Assembly: GCA_017412025.1 (NCBI GenBank)
Contig: JAFQOY010000261.1
Coordinates: 1-12,002, forward strand
Direction: 5' to 3'
Source: Clostridia bacterium
Lineage (GTDB): Bacteria > Bacillota_A > Clostridia > Christensenellales > Aristaeellaceae
Length of the DNA stretch: 12,002 nt
Part shown: piece by piece, positions 3,451-11,819 of the stretch
How the letters are laid out: each line of letters starts with the position of its first letter
Numbering within the stretch: the stretch's first letter is position 1
Made by a program: the position numbers and the translations under genes
The notes under the pieces: generated by a model
Told to the model about the DNA's origin: nothing
The model's input: the letters and a program-made list of their open reading frames with translations, nothing else
Database searches by the model: none

Positions 3451-5208
3451 TTATCGCTTCATCTTCGGATCGAACGCGTCGCGCAGACCGTCGCCGACGA
3501 AGTTGAAGCCAAGAACCGTCAGCACCATGAGCAGGCCGGCCGGAATCCAGATGAACCAGTAGTTGCTCATGACGTAGATGTTGCTGGCGGAGTTGATGAT
3601 GGTGCCCCAGGAGGCCAGCGGATACTTGATGCCAAGGCCGAGGAAGGACAGCGTCGCCTCCGTCAGGATGATGGAGCCCAGGCTCATCGTGGCCTGCACG
3701 ATCAGCAGCGGCATGACGTTGGGCACCAGGTGCTTGAAGATGCGCTGGCTGATGCGGATGCCGGTGGCCTCGGTGGCAACCATGAAGTCCTGCTCGCGCA
3801 GGGAGAGAATCTGGCCGCGCACTGTGCGCGCGATGCCCGTCCAGCCCATCAGGCCCATGATCGCCATCAGCAGGAAGATGCGGATGTACGGGTTGAGCTC
3901 AAAGGCGTCCATCAGCGAACCGGCGATGATCATCATCGGGTAGTAGGGGATGGAGTTGAACAGGTCGACAAAGCGCATGCAGAAGGTATCCACCCAGCCG
4001 CCGAAATAGCCGGACACGCCGCCGACGATGACGCCGATGAGCAGCTCCAGGATGACGACGACGAAGCCGACCATAAGGCTGATGCGGCCGCCGTACATCA
4101 GGCGGGTGATGACGTCCATGCCATGGTCGTCGGTGCCCAGCCAGTGGGAGGCGCTCGGCGCGGAATACATGTCCACCAGGTAAGTGACCTGACGGGTATA
4201 GACGATATAGCTGTTCAGGTTCAGCGCAATGGTGTGGCGCTCGGTTTCGCCATTGGCGTTCACATAGTCAAACTCGGTCTTGTGCTGCGCGATGGCGTCG
4301 GCGACGGCGGCCTTGTAGTCCATCGGCAGGAAGGTGCCGGCAGCCATCGGGCTGACGATGACGTTGGAGACGCTGGCGATCATGGTCCTTGCGTCGCCTT
4401 CGCCCTGATAGATGGAAGCGGTGGTCTCGTTTTCCACGTCGATGCCGTAGGTTTCGCCGTTCACCTTAAAGGTGGATGCGCCCGCATGCATGGCGGTCTC
4501 GCTGGCGAGGCGGAAATCGAAGCTGGAGACAAGATCGCGGTACGCGCTGTCTGAGCTGTCGTAGGCGAGCATGCTGGCCAGCGCGATATCCTGCGCGCCG
4601 GAGAGCGTGTAGGACTTGGCCTTGCCCGGGGTGAGGGTATAGGCGCCGCCCTCGCATTCAAAGGAGGTCTGTCCGGCCTTGACGGCGGCGACGGCGGCGT
4701 TTTCCACGGCCTTGCTGATCTCAACGCCCGCCTTGGGCTTGACCTGGGCGATCTTGCCCAGCGCCGTCACGGTGCCCAGCTCGCTGGCCTTGCCGATGCG
4801 GTAGAAGCCGTCGTCCACCTTGACGACGGAGTAGGTCTCCTTGCCGGCGGTGAAGCTGGCGTCGCCGTTCTTGACGGCGAGGTTGAAGCTGGCGCGCGCC
4901 GTGGCGGGCAGCTCCGCGCCGGGGATGGTCACATAGCGGTATTCCGTATTGACCACGGCGCTGGCGTATTCCTTGGTCGCATAGTCGTATTTATAGAAGA
5001 CCTCGTCCTGCCTGTAGGGCGACACGACGCCGCCGATGAAGGAGAAGGCGAACATGAACACGAGAATGCAGATGCCCAGAATGGCGAGGCGGTTGCGGAT
5101 GAACCGCTTGAAAACCATCATGCCGGGCGAGAGCACCTTGACGCGGCGGCCGTCGTCCAGGCTCAGGTTTTCCTCTTTATTGATCGAATCGTTTCGTTTT
5201 TCACTCAT
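3451..5208 (-). CDS. oppC: Oligopeptide ABC transporter permease OppC with large extracytoplasmic repeat domain
   Basis: A 585-residue inner-membrane permease, about twice the usual ~300. Residues 1-39 are a charged cytoplasmic lead, and TM1 spans 40-62. The standard permease domain resumes at about 350 with SASHWLGTDDHGMDVITRL and holds five more membrane segments (about 374-400, 416-432, 442-460, 498-520, 548-575). The cytoplasmic coupling (EAA) loop lies near 475-500 (GIRISQRIFKHLVPNVMP). Between TM1 and this domain are about 290 residues outside the membrane, in which a motif of the form A-x3-G-x-S/T-x-F recurs four times, with its Phe at 119, 183, 247 and 313. The ATG at 5208 has GGGGAG about seven bases upstream. 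Gaps are 21 bases to oppB and 16 to oppD. The extra domain may contact the binding protein or the cell wall; that is inference. Confidence 0.93.
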   Translation of the reverse strand: MSEKRNDSINKEENLSLDDGRRVKVLSPGMMVFKRFIRNRLAILGICILVFMFAFSFIGGVVSPYRQDEVFYKYDYATKEYASAVVNTEYRYVTIPGAELPATARASFNLAVKNGDASFTAGKETYSVVKVDDGFYRIGKASELGTVTALGKIAQVKPKAGVEISKAVENAAVAAVKAGQTSFECEGGAYTLTPGKAKSYTLSGAQDIALASMLAYDSSDSAYRDLVSSFDFRLASETAMHAGASTFKVNGETYGIDVENETTASIYQGEGDARTMIASVSNVIVSPMAAGTFLPMDYKAAVADAIAQHKTEFDYVNANGETERHTIALNLNSYIVYTRQVTYLVDMYSAPSASHWLGTDDHGMDVITRLMYGGRISLMVGFVVVILELLIGVIVGGVSGYFGGWVDTFCMRFVDLFNSIPYYPMMIIAGSLMDAFELNPYIRIFLLMAIMGLMGWTGIARTVRGQILSLREQDFMVATEATGIRISQRIFKHLVPNVMPLLIVQATMSLGSIILTEATLSFLGLGIKYPLASWGTIINSASNIYVMSNYWFIWIPAGLLMVLTVLGFNFVGDGLRDAFDPKMKR

Positions 5209-6395: not shown

Positions 6396-8801
6396 TTACT
6401 TGTTCATGTTCATCACGATGTTCTGGGAATCCATCAGCCAGCCCCAGTAGGTGGTGACGTCCGGGGTGACGGTGGCAGTATCCACGCGGACGGAAGAGGA
6501 CAGCGCGATGTTCTGACGCTGATAGGCCGGGATTTCAACGGCCCAGTCCATGATCTCGTCAAGGCAGGCGCGGTAGACTTCCTTGCGGTAAGCCTGATCC
6601 TCGCTGGCGCGGGCGTCCAGGATCATCTGATCCAGCTCCTCGGAGCGGATGTGATAGTGGTTGGAGTCGGAGCCGCCCAGACCCACGATGTTGGAGGAAT
6701 GATAGACCTGGTACATATCCGGATCGATGGTGGAGCCCCACGCGGCGCACCACATCTCGTGCACGCCGGCGTCCATGGAATCCCACAGCACGTTGGAGTC
6801 GGCCGGGTCGTTGATCTTCAGCTCGAAGCCGATGGTGGCCAGCGCGTTCTTGGCGTCGGTCAGGATCGCGAAGGACGGGTGATCGCCGATGCCGTCGGCC
6901 GGGATGATCACTTCGTAGGACAGCTTGGCGCCTTCCGGAGCGGCGGTCATCATGCCGGTCGCCTCGTCGAAGGTATAGCCCGCAGCCTTGAAGAAGCCCT
7001 TGGAGGCCTCCAGCGCGGCGGCGTACTTGGCCGGGGCGTCCATGTCCGCGGTGAAGATCGGGTTGCCGTCAACGTCCACGGAGAAAGCGACCCTGTAGCC
7101 TTCGTCGGTGGCCTGCGGAGCAGCCCAGCTGGTGGAGGAGATCGGGTAGTTGATAACGGAAGCGGCGTCGCCGTAGTAGGAGTCGAACGCGACGTCACGG
7201 TAGACGGACATCACGGTGGCGATGGCCTTGCGCAGGTTCTTGGAGGCCTCGGAGGCCGGCTCGCCGGCGACATTCACGGTGTCCGCGTTGATGCCGATGT
7301 AGCCGTAGCCCAGGTTCGCAACGGAGTAGGTGGTGACGACGTCGCCCACCAGCTCGCCGTTGGAGTTGAAGGAGCGCAGCATCTCGAAGTTGGCCTTGGA
7401 GCCGTTGACGTCGGAGCCGCCGTCGACGGTGCCGGTCTGCACAGCGCTGCAGACCTCAGCAGAGTTGGTCTCCTTGAACTGGAAGTTCTTGGTCGCCGGA
7501 GCGCCGAGGTAGTAGTGCTCGTTGGCCTCGTAGTAGACCACGCGGTTCTCATACTTGACAAACTTGTACGGACCGGCGCCCATCGGCTTGTCGAGCTTGT
7601 CCTGCATGCAGGACAGATCGCCGTACGGATGGCCGAAGTTGTTGGCCTCGTAGTCGTAGGTGCCGTCGCCGTAGTAGTGCATCGGCGCGATCTGGATGCC
7701 CAGAATGGTGTAGATGGCCGGCGCGGAGAAGCCGTTGACCTTCACTTCCACGGTGAGGTCGTCGAGCTTGCGGATGCCGGTGATGTTGGGAACGCCCGCG
7801 CTCATGTCCACGCCGGAAGCGGCGGCGATGGCGGACATGGTGGAGGCGTTCAGCGCGTCGAGGGTGGTGCCGGTGGCGGACTCGCCCGCGTCGAGATACG
7901 CGGTGAAGTCGCCCGCATACTTGGCGGCAGCGGCCTCGTAGTAGTCGTCATTGGTCGCCTCGGCAACGGCGATGGTCTCGCCGGCGGCGGTGGTCACGGT
8001 GGCGAAGTCTTCGCTGATTTCGCCGAAGCCCCACAGCGCCATGCCCAGGGCGGTCTTCAGGCCTTCGCTGGCGGCGACTTCATCGGCGGTCTTGCCCAGC
8101 ATCGCCTCGGCATAGTCCGCGGCGTAGTTGTCAAAGACGTAGTCGGTGATGCCCTGCGTGTCGGCCTTCCACAGCTCGACGATGCCGGCCTGATAGGCGT
8201 CGTACACTTCCTGAGTGAACGGATCGGCCTCGGTCACGGTGTAGCCGGCGCCGGCAGCCTTGAGGGCGTCCATGGCGGGCACAACGGCGGCGAGGGAATC
8301 CTCCGGCACCTGGGTCAGATACGCCTGCAGGCCCACGATGTCGTAGGAGCCCAGCGTGGTGGAGCCGGTGTAGGACGGATCGAGATAGACATAGTAGTTA
8401 AAGATGATGTCGTCCGCCGTCATCTGCGTGCCGTCGGAGAACTTGATGTTGTCCGCGAGCTTGGCGGTATATGTGGTAATGTCCGCCTCCTTGTCGTAGA
8501 CCTGGGAGAGGTCCGCGATGCCCTGATAGAAATAGTCCGTGCCGTTGTAGCTGACGGTTTCACCTTCAATGCCGTTGAAGATGATGCCGCCGGTACGGTC
8601 GGTGGTCATCAGGGGGACCTGGGTCATTTCCACGACGTCCTGGTCGTAACCGGTGTCGGCGAAGAACGGGCTGAACTTGGAAGAGAGGGTCTGGATCGCA
8701 ACAACGATCGGGGTTTCAACCGCCGCCGTATCCTCGGCGAACGCGGTCGTCATGCCTGCGAGCATGGAGAGAGCCAGCAGGATGGACAGAAGCTTCTTCA
8801 T
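6396..8801 (-). CDS. oppA: Extracellular oligopeptide-binding protein (SBP family 5), enlarged, non-lipoprotein
   Basis: An 801-residue secreted solute-binding protein that should capture peptides or a related solute and deliver it to OppB/OppC. Residues 1-22 are a Sec signal peptide ending in AFA-ED, a good signal peptidase I site. There is no lipobox cysteine, so it is not an obvious lipoprotein. Family-5 features include the N-terminal lobe with FSDGTQMTADDIIFNYYVYL (121-140), the conserved MGAGPYKFVKYE (407-418), and LRKAIATVMSVYRDV (523-537). An Ala- and acid-rich segment at about 150-340 is inserted before IRKLDDLTVEVKVNG (343-357); the usual length is 520-560. The chosen ATG at 8801 has AAGGAGGA just upstream and begins the signal peptide; an upstream in-frame ATG at 8834 would spoil it. 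Peptide, dipeptide or nickel specificity cannot be settled, so the symbol is by operon context. Confidence 0.9.
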   Translation of the reverse strand: MKKLLSILLALSMLAGMTTAFAEDTAAVETPIVVAIQTLSSKFSPFFADTGYDQDVVEMTQVPLMTTDRTGGIIFNGIEGETVSYNGTDYFYQGIADLSQVYDKEADITTYTAKLADNIKFSDGTQMTADDIIFNYYVYLDPSYTGSTTLGSYDIVGLQAYLTQVPEDSLAAVVPAMDALKAAGAGYTVTEADPFTQEVYDAYQAGIVELWKADTQGITDYVFDNYAADYAEAMLGKTADEVAASEGLKTALGMALWGFGEISEDFATVTTAAGETIAVAEATNDDYYEAAAAKYAGDFTAYLDAGESATGTTLDALNASTMSAIAAASGVDMSAGVPNITGIRKLDDLTVEVKVNGFSAPAIYTILGIQIAPMHYYGDGTYDYEANNFGHPYGDLSCMQDKLDKPMGAGPYKFVKYENRVVYYEANEHYYLGAPATKNFQFKETNSAEVCSAVQTGTVDGGSDVNGSKANFEMLRSFNSNGELVGDVVTTYSVANLGYGYIGINADTVNVAGEPASEASKNLRKAIATVMSVYRDVAFDSYYGDAASVINYPISSTSWAAPQATDEGYRVAFSVDVDGNPIFTADMDAPAKYAAALEASKGFFKAAGYTFDEATGMMTAAPEGAKLSYEVIIPADGIGDHPSFAILTDAKNALATIGFELKINDPADSNVLWDSMDAGVHEMWCAAWGSTIDPDMYQVYHSSNIVGLGGSDSNHYHIRSEELDQMILDARASEDQAYRKEVYRACLDEIMDWAVEIPAYQRQNIALSSSVRVDTATVTPDVTTYWGWLMDSQNIVMNMNK

Positions 8802-8869
8802 ATTTGTTCCTCCTTGTTTATTTATTCTCTGCATTCATGCACAATGCCACGAATACAAAGTTACATTTC

Positions 8870-9183: not shown

Positions 9184-9237
9184 ATACGGGCTGCAAAAAC
9201 ATATCACCTACTATGCATTTTGAAAGTGAGAATTACG

Positions 9238-10104
9238 ATGGCAAAAAAACGTGGAGACCGCAGAGACGGCGCGCTGCTCAAAGACATCCATGCCATGCAT
9301 CTGATCATGCCGCTGATGTATCCCAACCGGTGTGACAACGAGGCGTTTATCAGCGAGCAGATTGACCTGACGAACGTGATGGCTTACCTTGAAAAGAAGA
9401 ATGCGGACAATCCGGCATATAAATACAATCTGTTTCAGGTGATGGTGACGGCGATGCTCAGGACCATTACCCTCAGGCCGAAGATGAACCGCTTCATCGC
9501 CAACCAGACGATGTACCAGCGCAATGAGGTATCGGCGGCGTTCACGGTCAAGAAGATCTTTTCCGATAACGGCGCGGAGGCGCTGGCGATCATCCACTCT
9601 AAAGGAAGCGACACCATCGACACCATCCACGAGGAGATTTACCGTCAGGTGTCCTTCTGCCGCAGCGACAAGCTGGACGACGGCATGAAGAGCCTTGATC
9701 TGGTGCAGAAGACGCCGCGTCCGCTGCTGAAAACCGTGGGCTGGCTGCTGCGCTTCCTCGACAGGCGGGGCATCGTGCCGTATTCGCTCATCAAGGGCGA
9801 TCCGTATTATTCCTCCGTCGTGCTGAGCAATCTGGGCTCCATCGGCCTCAATGCGGGCTACCACCATCTGAACAACTGGGGCACGACGTCCGTGTTCTGC
9901 ACGGTGGGCTCGATCAAAAAGAGGCCGTTTTACGGCGAGGACGGCAGCGTGACGATGCGCGAGAGCGTGGATCTGGGCCTGACCATCGACGAGCGCCTGG
10001 CGGACGGCTATTACTATTCCAAGACGATCAGGCTGCTCAAGAAGCTGCTGGAGAATCCGGAGCTGCTGGAAGAGCCGCTTGAAAAAGAGGTTGAATACGA
10101 ATGA
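9238..10104 (+). CDS. Stand-alone E2/CAT-fold acyltransferase-like protein lacking the catalytic His
   Basis: A 288-residue protein matching the catalytic-domain fold of 2-oxoacid dehydrogenase E2 acyltransferases and chloramphenicol acetyltransferase, without the lipoyl and peripheral-subunit-binding domains of true E2. Typical features are ALIIH-like strands before residue 120, SSVVLSNLGSIGLNAG (192-207), WGTTSVFCTVG (214-224) and the C-terminal LTIDERLADGYYYSKTIRLL (248-267). In E2 the last motif is DHRxxDG with His as the base; here it is DERLADG, so Glu252 replaces that His while the Asp-Gly pair is kept. The usual acyl-transfer mechanism is therefore doubtful. The ATG at 9238 has only a weak GTGAG upstream; an in-frame TTG at 9220 is less likely. 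It overlaps the acyl-CoA synthetase gene by four bases, so it probably uses or shuttles the same acyl group. Confidence 0.8.
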   Translation: MAKKRGDRRDGALLKDIHAMHLIMPLMYPNRCDNEAFISEQIDLTNVMAYLEKKNADNPAYKYNLFQVMVTAMLRTITLRPKMNRFIANQTMYQRNEVSAAFTVKKIFSDNGAEALAIIHSKGSDTIDTIHEEIYRQVSFCRSDKLDDGMKSLDLVQKTPRPLLKTVGWLLRFLDRRGIVPYSLIKGDPYYSSVVLSNLGSIGLNAGYHHLNNWGTTSVFCTVGSIKKRPFYGEDGSVTMRESVDLGLTIDERLADGYYYSKTIRLLKKLLENPELLEEPLEKEVEYE

Positions 10105-11819
10105 GCGTGATTACGGCAAAAACTCCGTGGAGGGAGTACATGGGCGACGTGCCCATGCATCTTGATTATTTTGAGGGATCGATGTTTGAGATGCTTGAGC
10201 AGGTTGCGCTGAAGTATCCAGGCCATATTGCCTATGACTTCATGGGCAAATCCACGACGTATAAGAAGCTGGTGCAGGAGGTGGAAACCTGCGCCAAAGC
10301 GCTCAAGACCATCGGCGTGCGCGAGGGCGACCGGGTGACCATCGCCATGCCCAACTGCCCGCAGGCGATCTGCCTGTTCTACGCGGTCAATCTGGTGGGC
10401 GGTATCGCCAACATGATCCATCCGCTGTCGGCGGAGAAGGAGATTGAGTTCTATCTCAACGAGTCCGGCAGCGTCACGGCGATTACGCTGGATCAGTTCT
10501 ATCACAAGTTTGAGGCGATCCGCAAGAACACGAAGGTCGTCAACATCATCATCGCCAGCATCCGCGATGCGCTGGCCCAGCCGATCAGGACGGGCTACAT
10601 GCTCACCGAGGGCAGAAAGATCCGCAAGATCCCTGCGGACGCGCCTGTGATCCGCTGGAAGGAGTTCATGGCGCTGAGCAAGTGCTGCTTCTACGAGTAC
10701 AAGGTCTCCCGCGCGGCGGATGACCCCGCTGTGATCCTCTATTCCGGCGGAACGACCGGCACGACGAAGGGCATTGTGCTGACGAACAAAAACTTCAACG
10801 CGCTGAGCGAGCAGGTGATCGCGGCCAATCCGATGTTCCGCCCGGGCGACAAGATGCTGGCGGCAATGCCGGTGTTCCACGGCTTCGGCCTGGGCGTGTG
10901 CATCCATACGATGCTTACTCAGGGCGGCCGCTGCATCCTCGTGCCGCGCTTCACGCCCAAGACGTACGCGAAGGATTTGGTCAAAAACCGCTGCAACTTT
11001 GTCGCCGGCGTGCCGACGCTCTATGAAGCGCTGCTGCGCCTGAAGGACATGGAAGGCGCCGACCTGAGCTGCCTGAAGGGCGTATTCTCCGGCGGCGATT
11101 CGCTGTCCATCGAGCTGAAGAAGAAGATGGACAAGTTCCTCTACGATCACAAGGCGACCGTGCAGGTGCGCGAGGGCTACGGCACGACGGAGACCGTTAC
11201 GGCCTGCTGCCTGACGCCGCAGCACATGTTCAAGGAGGGCTCCATCGGCCTGCCGTTTCCGGATACCTACATCAAGATCGTGGAGCCGGGCACGGACAGG
11301 GAGCTGCCCTACGGCGAGGAGGGCGAGATCCTGCTGGCCGGCCCGACGGTGATGAAGGAATACATGCATCATCCGCAGGAGACGGCGCAGACGCTGCGCG
11401 CGCACAGCGACGGCCTGACGTGGGTATACACCGGCGACCTGGGCAGGATGGACGAGCAGGGCTTTGTCTATTTCAGGGGCAGGGCCAAGCGCATGATCGT
11501 CACCTCCGGCTACAACGTCTATCCGGCGCAGATTGAAAACATTCTGGATGCGCACGAATTCGTGCAGATGAGCTGTGTGATCGGCATTCCGGATTCGTAC
11601 AAGATGCAGAAGGTCAAGGCGTTTGTCAAGCTCGCCGCAGGCGTTGAGGCAAACGAGGAAACGAAGAAGGCGATCCTTGACCACTGCAGAAAGCACGTGG
11701 CCAAGTACGCGATGCCCTGCGATGTGGAATTCCGCGAGGAAATGCCCAAGACGCTGGTGGGCAAGGTGGCCTACAGGGTGCTTGAGGAAGAGGAAATGGC
11801 GAAGCAGCAGAGCGCATAA
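10101..11819 (+). CDS. Acyl-CoA synthetase (AMP-forming), fatty-acid-CoA ligase type
   Basis: A 572-residue ANL-superfamily enzyme that should activate a carboxylic acid with ATP to an acyl-adenylate and pass it to CoA. Adenylation motifs occur in order: phosphate-binding YSGGTTGTTKG (214-224), VFHGFGLG near 258-265, GYGTTE (359-364), YTGDLGRMDEQG (443-454), RGRAKRMIVTSGYNVYP (459-475) around the hinge, and the C-terminal PKTLVGKVAYR (549-559) with the catalytic Lys555. The length is normal for fatty acyl-CoA ligases and nothing essential is missing. The ATG at 10101 overlaps the stop of the E2-like gene as ATGA, a translational-coupling arrangement. Chain length and natural substrate cannot be read from the motifs; a medium- or long-chain or aromatic acid is possible. 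It is cytoplasmic, with no signal peptide or membrane segment. Confidence 0.92.
   Translation: MSVITAKTPWREYMGDVPMHLDYFEGSMFEMLEQVALKYPGHIAYDFMGKSTTYKKLVQEVETCAKALKTIGVREGDRVTIAMPNCPQAICLFYAVNLVGGIANMIHPLSAEKEIEFYLNESGSVTAITLDQFYHKFEAIRKNTKVVNIIIASIRDALAQPIRTGYMLTEGRKIRKIPADAPVIRWKEFMALSKCCFYEYKVSRAADDPAVILYSGGTTGTTKGIVLTNKNFNALSEQVIAANPMFRPGDKMLAAMPVFHGFGLGVCIHTMLTQGGRCILVPRFTPKTYAKDLVKNRCNFVAGVPTLYEALLRLKDMEGADLSCLKGVFSGGDSLSIELKKKMDKFLYDHKATVQVREGYGTTETVTACCLTPQHMFKEGSIGLPFPDTYIKIVEPGTDRELPYGEEGEILLAGPTVMKEYMHHPQETAQTLRAHSDGLTWVYTGDLGRMDEQGFVYFRGRAKRMIVTSGYNVYPAQIENILDAHEFVQMSCVIGIPDSYKMQKVKAFVKLAAGVEANEETKKAILDHCRKHVAKYAMPCDVEFREEMPKTLVGKVAYRVLEEEEMAKQQSA

Follow-up and report, generated by a model that had tools for sequence, protein, structure and literature searches.

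Importer permeases that bear extracytoplasmic inserts are a known kind. In the available excerpts of PMC11192437, AmiC of Streptococcus pneumoniae is described as carrying two such domains, ECD1 and ECD2 (residues 31–278), which are proposed on the basis of an AlphaFold-Multimer model to clamp the binding protein, and its partner AmiD as having a coil only (residues 64–99). Excerpted text of PMC12136057 describes a scoop motif of Escherichia coli DppB that inserts between the lobes of DppA, and the portion of PMC3150292 at hand reports that MalF-P2 contacts MalE in the maltose importer. Here we describe an OppC-type permease in which the first transmembrane helix (TM1) is followed by a tandem array of repeat units. 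To our knowledge, MalF-P2 is not repetitive, and in solved Opp/Dpp importers the permease meets the binding protein via small loops. We take AmiC to be an OppB-type subunit.

The window, by which we mean the entire 12,002-nucleotide stretch of DNA that was analyzed, holds an operon encoding a binding protein, OppB, OppC, OppD and OppF (Table 1). The OppC-type assignment is based on this operon together with both Pfam domains, namely OppC_N at residues 27–76 and BPD_transp_1 at residues 392–585 (41 and 94.8 bits vs cut-offs of 23.9 and 26.4). The top NCBIfam model for the permease is Opp4C, which at 322.4 bits stays under its curated equivalog cut-off of 350, and that for the binding protein is Opp4A, at 98 bits under a cut-off of 650. 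The order SBP–OppB–OppC–OppD–OppF is kept across 80 loci from Clostridia and Anaerolineae as far as contigs extend (OppD is broken into two frames at locus L024), and it is the same in the operons fetched from nine of ten genomes with three-unit arrays and from the single genome with the long form described below. The permease and the operon themselves are ordinary. As a separate observation, the C-terminal cysteine clusters of OppD and OppF resemble by eye the [4Fe-4S]-binding ones of E. coli DppD/DppF (PMC12136057, excerpts).

Table 1. Coordinates in the window of the operon genes and of the features of OppC and the binding protein.
Feature	Position	Strand	Basis
OppF-type ATPase, 343 aa	1268–2299	minus	Pfam, NCBIfam, gene order in relatives
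OppD-type ATPase, 390 aa	2262–3434	minus	Pfam, NCBIfam, gene order in relatives
OppC-type permease, 585 aa	3451–5208	minus	Pfam OppC_N + BPD_transp_1
OppC permease core, remaining TM helices (residues 366–579)	3472–4113	minus	
Inserted extracytoplasmic repeat domain (residues 72–345)	4174–4995	minus	AF2; no Pfam match above cut-off
Unit 4 (residues 292–345), Phe313	4174–4335	minus	profile statistics, AF2, motif
Unit 3 (residues 226–291), Phe247	4336–4533	minus	profile statistics, AF2, motif
Unit 2 (residues 162–225), Phe183	4534–4725	minus	profile statistics, AF2, motif
Unit 1 (residues 98–161), Phe119	4726–4917	minus	profile statistics, AF2, motif
TM1 of OppC (residues 40–62)	5023–5091	minus	helix in AF2 model; OppC_N match
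OppB-type permease, 331 aa	5230–6225	minus	Pfam, NCBIfam, gene order in relatives
Substrate-binding protein (SBP_bac_5), 812 aa, oversized	6396–8834	minus	Pfam; solved relatives shorter
Extra segment of binding protein, ~190 aa (residues ~165–350)	7785–8342	minus	solved-relative alignments

Between TM1 and the permease core of this OppC lie ~275 residues that consist of four tandem units of ~64 residues each. As in AmiC, the array is a large insert on the extracytoplasmic side that follows TM1 in an oligopeptide permease subunit, but the AmiC ECDs are described as two distinct domains, a difference that is one of description (PMC11192437, excerpts). In addition, the array resides in the OppC-type subunit, whereas an AmiC-type insertion belongs to the OppB-type subunit, which in the window measures 331 aa. 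A folded extracytoplasmic insert in an importer permease is likewise shared with MalF-P2, which touches its binding protein (available portion of PMC3150292), although the permease family and the position of the insert are different. The OppC/DppC proteins of E. coli and Mycobacterium tuberculosis in solved structures (8z21, 8z1v, 8j5q, 8wd9 and others; 13 chains of 273–289 residues) are too small for the domain, and the 278-position NCBIfam Opp4C model is too short to hold it. Five solved OppC/DppC sequences align at residues 348–584 only, apart from weak matches to TM1 among the alignments displayed. The first-pass annotation, made from the sequence alone, stated that such a domain is normally missing from OppC, in keeping with what is seen in 11 chosen genomes, where 11 of 37 OppC_N frames are array-bearing (538–685 aa). 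The remaining 26 frames span 274–496 aa; 21 of them are just 274–355 aa, and 5 (422–496 aa) have room for another insert. Insertions in OppC seem in general to be accommodated in the loop that follows TM1.

Evidence for the repetition comes from single-sequence and family-profile comparisons. The motifs that first drew attention to the domain (AVKNGDASF, AVKAGQTSF, AMHAGASTF and AIAQHKTEF) are exact, and end at Phe119, Phe183, Phe247 and Phe313, respectively. Local scores from pairwise comparison of the four segments within the one sequence added up to 175, compared to a mean of 134.6 and a maximum of 170 for shuffles (0 of 1000 reached the real score). When the spacing was fixed at 64/64/66, the top five of 359 placements across the whole protein fell no more than 4 residues from the register originally proposed, which itself ranked fifth. 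With profiles built from 100 family sequences and restricted to the query columns, the six unit pairs reached scores of 25–59 and probabilities of 78–98. The maximum from column shuffles of the unit profiles was 20.2, with 0 of 60 per pair reaching the real score, and 56 controls, in which segments from elsewhere than the four units were compared, scored at most 10.7. Similarity among the units had been expected to exceed that of shuffled sequence, and it does so in the single-sequence sum and in all six profile pairs.

It could be argued that the repetition reflects chance similarity within an alanine-rich segment. Within one sequence, lone pairs are indeed weak, with 32 to 372 of 1000 shuffles equally good for the six unit pairs, and an earlier profile run on all alignment columns yielded probabilities of 87–97 for five pairs and just 8 for units 1 and 4, which are for this reason the weakest pair. 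Chance similarity is nonetheless already contradicted by the shuffle results and by three-unit relatives, which lack 63 residues between equivalent points of adjacent units and in which three units were counted in 10 of the 10 genomes of their clade. We give this explanation practically no prospect of being correct.

The predicted structure is consistent with the profile statistics. Specifically, residues 91–346 folded alone in AF2 (pLDDT 94.4) yielded four similarly built modules, each a helix followed by strands, as had been anticipated for a prediction on the domain alone; the helices begin at residues 102, 166, 230 and 296. The proposed order within each unit (motif, strand, then helix) proved wrong, as the helix precedes the motif and the beta strands come after it. 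The extent was also revised: the repeat is present, but its region is better set at residues 98–345 (window 4174–4917), and an additional strand pair begins at residue 72, ahead of unit 1. With respect to location, positive residues precede TM1 (judged by eye) and the domain comes after it, which places the domain outside the cell, as do the signal peptide and lipobox of the free form discussed below. The claim of four similar extracytoplasmic modules in OppC is thereby upheld in the main, by the profile statistics, by the predicted structure, and by relatives in which whole units have been lost and probably also gained.

Searches with the domain returned no established family. Nothing in Pfam exceeded its cut-off for the window domain (DUF4251 alone appeared, at 13.5 bits vs a cut-off of 27), no match reached significance in a fold search of solved structures, and a PDB sequence search found no relative of the domain (best E 0.069). 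A Pfam match to Lsr2 in 18 of 66 domain members (best E 3.2e-05) was set aside, since it probably reflects short motif similarity. Neither Pfam nor NCBIfam has a name for the repeat domain, its site in OppC, the series of three, four and five units, or the lipoprotein form, so that a domain unnamed in the annotation libraries searched fills about half of a 585-residue protein. The open-licence literature searched yielded no description of the repeat domain either, which is weak evidence of absence. Permeases with inserts are thus familiar, and this repeat domain is one for which no name or description was found.

Natural variation in unit number provides a further view of the array. Among relatives of genome G081, a domain match was found in 11 of 60 genomes (G081 included). 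Ten of these form a three-unit clade, with OppC proteins of 514–530 aa and exactly three units each; at locus L081, the missing 63 residues correspond to residues 141–203 of the window OppC and run from a point in unit 1 to its equivalent in unit 2. The eleventh genome (G562, locus L093) has an OppC of 685 aa, and a search from it gave 135 relatives at E <= 0.001, with 118 of the 120 listed measuring 675–715 aa. In this long clade of ~680 aa, U2 and U3 are both closest to unit 2 and U4 matches unit 3, while U1 resembles unit 1 (probability 75, 0 of 40 shuffles). U5 is marginal, scoring 18.4 against U1 (shuffle maximum 17.1) and 15.6 against unit 4 (maximum 15.1). As judged from these sequence matches, the long form likely has five units through duplication of unit 2. 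Counting by hmmsearch at 5 bits found four units in 15 of the 120 long forms, three in 84, two in 20 and one in a single protein, using a unit model from which three-unit, long and lipoprotein forms are absent.

In a permease-core tree, the three-unit and long forms each make up one clade (SH-aLRT 99 and 100), and the four-unit forms fall on both sides, from which we infer that four units are likely the ancestral state, with a distant outgroup that leaves the root unsure. This tree, built by a quick method, has 72 rows: the window together with 45 further four-unit loci, 8 of the 10 three-unit genomes, 15 of the 120 listed long-form proteins, and 3 array-less permeases that serve as outgroup and sit on very long branches. 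The units are homologous and variable in number, as seen in the profiles, the three-unit and longer relatives, and the tree, and so constitute a tandem repeat. Moreover, because three-unit, longer and free lipoprotein forms exist, the array is modular and varies by whole units, with versions of three, four and probably five.

Regarding occurrence, a protein search with residues 60–360 identified 161 relatives at E <= 0.001 among 7991 candidates scored. All 120 listed (50–75% identical) have four units, and in databases they are labelled merely 'ABC transporter permease'. A contig scan with one genome per species gave at least 569 loci, of which the best 80 were kept; these come from Clostridia and Anaerolineae (Chloroflexota), favor array-bearing OppCs and are uninformative on frequency. 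Four units were counted in OppC at 80 of these 80 loci at >=5 bits, and at 79 under a stricter cut (>5), with one locus having three; the difference is a single L022 unit at 5.0 bits. The unit-count model was built from alignment A2 (see below), so that four-unit counts are partly by construction. The family with the OppC array was thus found in anaerobic Clostridia and Anaerolineae, the domain profile having sampled two phyla and the contig scan alone, through its best 80 of at least 569 loci, having covered the others.

In even samples, the domain is rare. It was present in 2 of 299 genomes from the Acidaminobacter phylum, the centre included, and as a full match in 4 of 201 Chloroflexota genomes, two of them already known. 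One further Chloroflexota hit, in G332 (E 0.005), was spurious and is not a member: it is a 186-aa frame without permease features and cupin-like by eye. The OppC core nearest to that of the window in the tree is L002 of genome G005 (90% identity). Among G005 relatives, 8 of 60 genomes have the domain (the centre included), three of these as partial matches in frames of 529, 687 and 730 aa, and this patchiness suggests repeated loss or transfer.

Sequence conservation within the array was assessed in two alignments. A1 has 41 sequences and still includes P0001, P0101, P0113 and P0118. A2 has 100, comprising the window, 74 of the 80 loci (L014, L022, L037, L043, L071 and L072 are omitted) and 25 of the 120 listed proteins, and omits P0001, P0101, P0113, P0117 and P0118 for gaps or poor cores. 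The unit skeleton consists of the four Phe residues, each with an Ala eight residues upstream; all four Phe are invariant in A1 and >=90% conserved in A2. Across 66 domains with identity to the window down to 22%, 13 positions are >=90% conserved (F119, A175, F183, Y190, F232, A239, F247, S281, L294, A305, F313, G320 and Y334 in OppC numbering), corresponding to seven aromatic residues, three helix alanines, and one each of S, L and G. No charged residue is >=90% conserved in these 66 domains, where Ser occupies one of the 13 positions and F, Y, A, L or G the other 12. The mean distance is 1.34 for the domain vs 0.26 for the core, that is, about five times more divergence in the domain, and such fast divergence would fit an accessory surface.

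In terms of function, the position of the array, its operon, its fast evolution and its lack of a conserved polar site lead us to favor docking of the substrate-binding protein as the best explanation. Drawn from analogy and gene context, this reading may equally well prove right or wrong. The array would form a platform on the outer face of the membrane that receives the large cognate binding protein and orients it over the pore, a role that is proposed for the AmiC ECDs, the nearest arrangement described, and that MalF-P2 fills in the maltose importer. Contacts made by OppC would then supplement the scoop-type contact that DppB is known to make, and gain or loss of units would change the reach of the platform with the permease left undisturbed.

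The presumed partner is unusually large. Binding proteins beside an array-bearing OppC measure 745–884 aa (65 complete ORFs, first possible start), compared to 490–562 aa for eight solved relatives. The extra segment accounts for a gap in the alignments, where residues 170 to 416 of the binding protein correspond to 111 to 156 of 4oet, and residues 159 to 403 to 119 to 168 of 1xoc; an equal-length counterpart is absent in both of these solved relatives. This segment has the highest mean distance (1.66) among nine operon parts measured. In 16 chosen genomes (sets of 11 and 6, with G005 in both), the partner of the array-bearing OppC was 769–903 aa stop to stop in 16 of 16 cases, and 70 of the 76 other SBP_bac_5 frames were at most 704 aa. 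The six other large binding proteins measured 748, 780, 834, 923, 975 and 984 aa stop to stop, the 923-aa frame perhaps being a frame-shifted gene. The association between array and large binding protein is consistent, not exclusive. Upstream of the array-bearing permease, L045 has two consecutive large binding proteins, and L075 and L078 have three each.

Several results count against docking. The other large binding proteins just listed are one, and binding-protein length is another, as it does not track unit number in the operons compared (751–835 aa with three units, 745–884 with four, 781 with the long form). Covariation is the third: across 59 loci plus the window (L022 and L036 removed), it did not single out the binding protein. 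The domain correlated with the conserved binding-protein parts at 0.24 and 0.26, given the distances of the OppC core, OppB, OppD and OppF, and with OppB at 0.28 and OppD at 0.32, each tested against the remaining three; with the extra segment, the correlation was negative (-0.19). The choice of the best 80 of at least 569 loci, which favors array-bearing OppCs, is a further point against. The natural three-, four- and probably five-unit variants, together with the lipoprotein variants, offer ready tests of binding-protein recognition and platform length.

The anchoring of the binding protein bears on a different proposal, in which the array would hold the importer in larger assemblies or retain at the cell surface a binding protein that is not lipidated. 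In agreement with retention, the window binding protein carries a signal peptide of the AxA type, with no cysteine among its first 75 residues, although its lineage is regarded as monoderm, and several close relatives are alike. However, in more than half of the array-bearing relatives the binding protein has a lipobox. The pattern flagged 47 of 76, an approximate figure given that it produced some false flags, for example at position 12 within the hydrophobic stretch in L012 and L022, and missed some likely lipoproteins (L041, L063). A lipobox is likewise lacking in several further binding proteins encoded by these genomes, a number left uncounted as taking the longest frame gave a wrong one at several GC-rich loci. 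The trait is therefore not tied to the domain. We regard assembly or retention as highly improbable. The narrower idea of the array as a lipid-anchor substitute for the binding protein was rejected as a specific role on these same two grounds.

The domain also exists outside the permease. Anaerolineaceae locus L025 encodes, 0.4 kb behind oppF, a 299-aa protein with a signal peptide, a lipobox (LSAC) and all four units, and L040 has the same lipoprotein gene in partly masked sequence; these are the only units outside OppC among the 80 loci. A search gave 20 free lipoprotein-type proteins, 19 of them with a SAC lipobox and the twentieth without an N-terminus. Four units were counted in 18 of the 20 (one unit of one protein at 4.9 bits) and three in the two shorter ones. 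Given the lipobox of the free form, the domain probably folds independently and works outside the membrane. A fuller version of the docking reading would hold that this is a new modular repeat family whose unit number (three, four or five) is tuned to the reach of the dock, with the Anaerolineaceae lipoprotein working in trans by receiving or handing over the binding protein; we consider it rather unlikely that all of this holds.

This free form, adjoining the operon, would also suit an array that acts as a spacer or an anchor on peptidoglycan or another wall polymer and thereby sets the position of the importer with respect to the wall. Spacing and wall binding are common roles of repeat arrays, and the window and the kept loci belong to lineages regarded as monoderm. 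Against this, the Pfam families for which the window domain gave no match above cut-off include wall-binding ones, and the near absence of conserved polar residues in 66 domains is a poor fit with a constant ligand. Attachment to the wall, or spacing from it, is an unlikely role. Alternatively, the array itself could bind peptide as a second receptor or a filter before the pore. Its placement at the permease mouth (from AF2 and the insert position) would be apt for this, and the free lipoprotein could be an extra receptor, but the 66 domains share no conserved polar or charged site and a dedicated binding protein is already present in the operon; we hold peptide binding to be very doubtful.

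Other features of these loci were recorded in passing. In a 607-aa OppC paralogue at L068:593–2413 (plus strand), the site of the array between OppC_N and the permease domain is taken up by RCC1-type repeats (six stretches of Pfam RCC1_2, E 6.9e-40). Four OppC-like permeases of 447–515 aa (L013:19338–20882, L049:1433–2917, L064:20245–21585 and L074:13488–14828) lack units of the array repeat and are long enough at this site to accommodate different extracytoplasmic inserts. In the window, positions 9220–10104 (plus strand) encode a lone 2-oxoacid dehydrogenase acyltransferase catalytic domain of 294 aa, in which Pfam found no lipoyl domain. The DHR..DG motif usual for such acyltransferases appears by eye to be altered, and the stop codon of the gene overlaps the start of an acyl-CoA ligase gene at 10101–11819.
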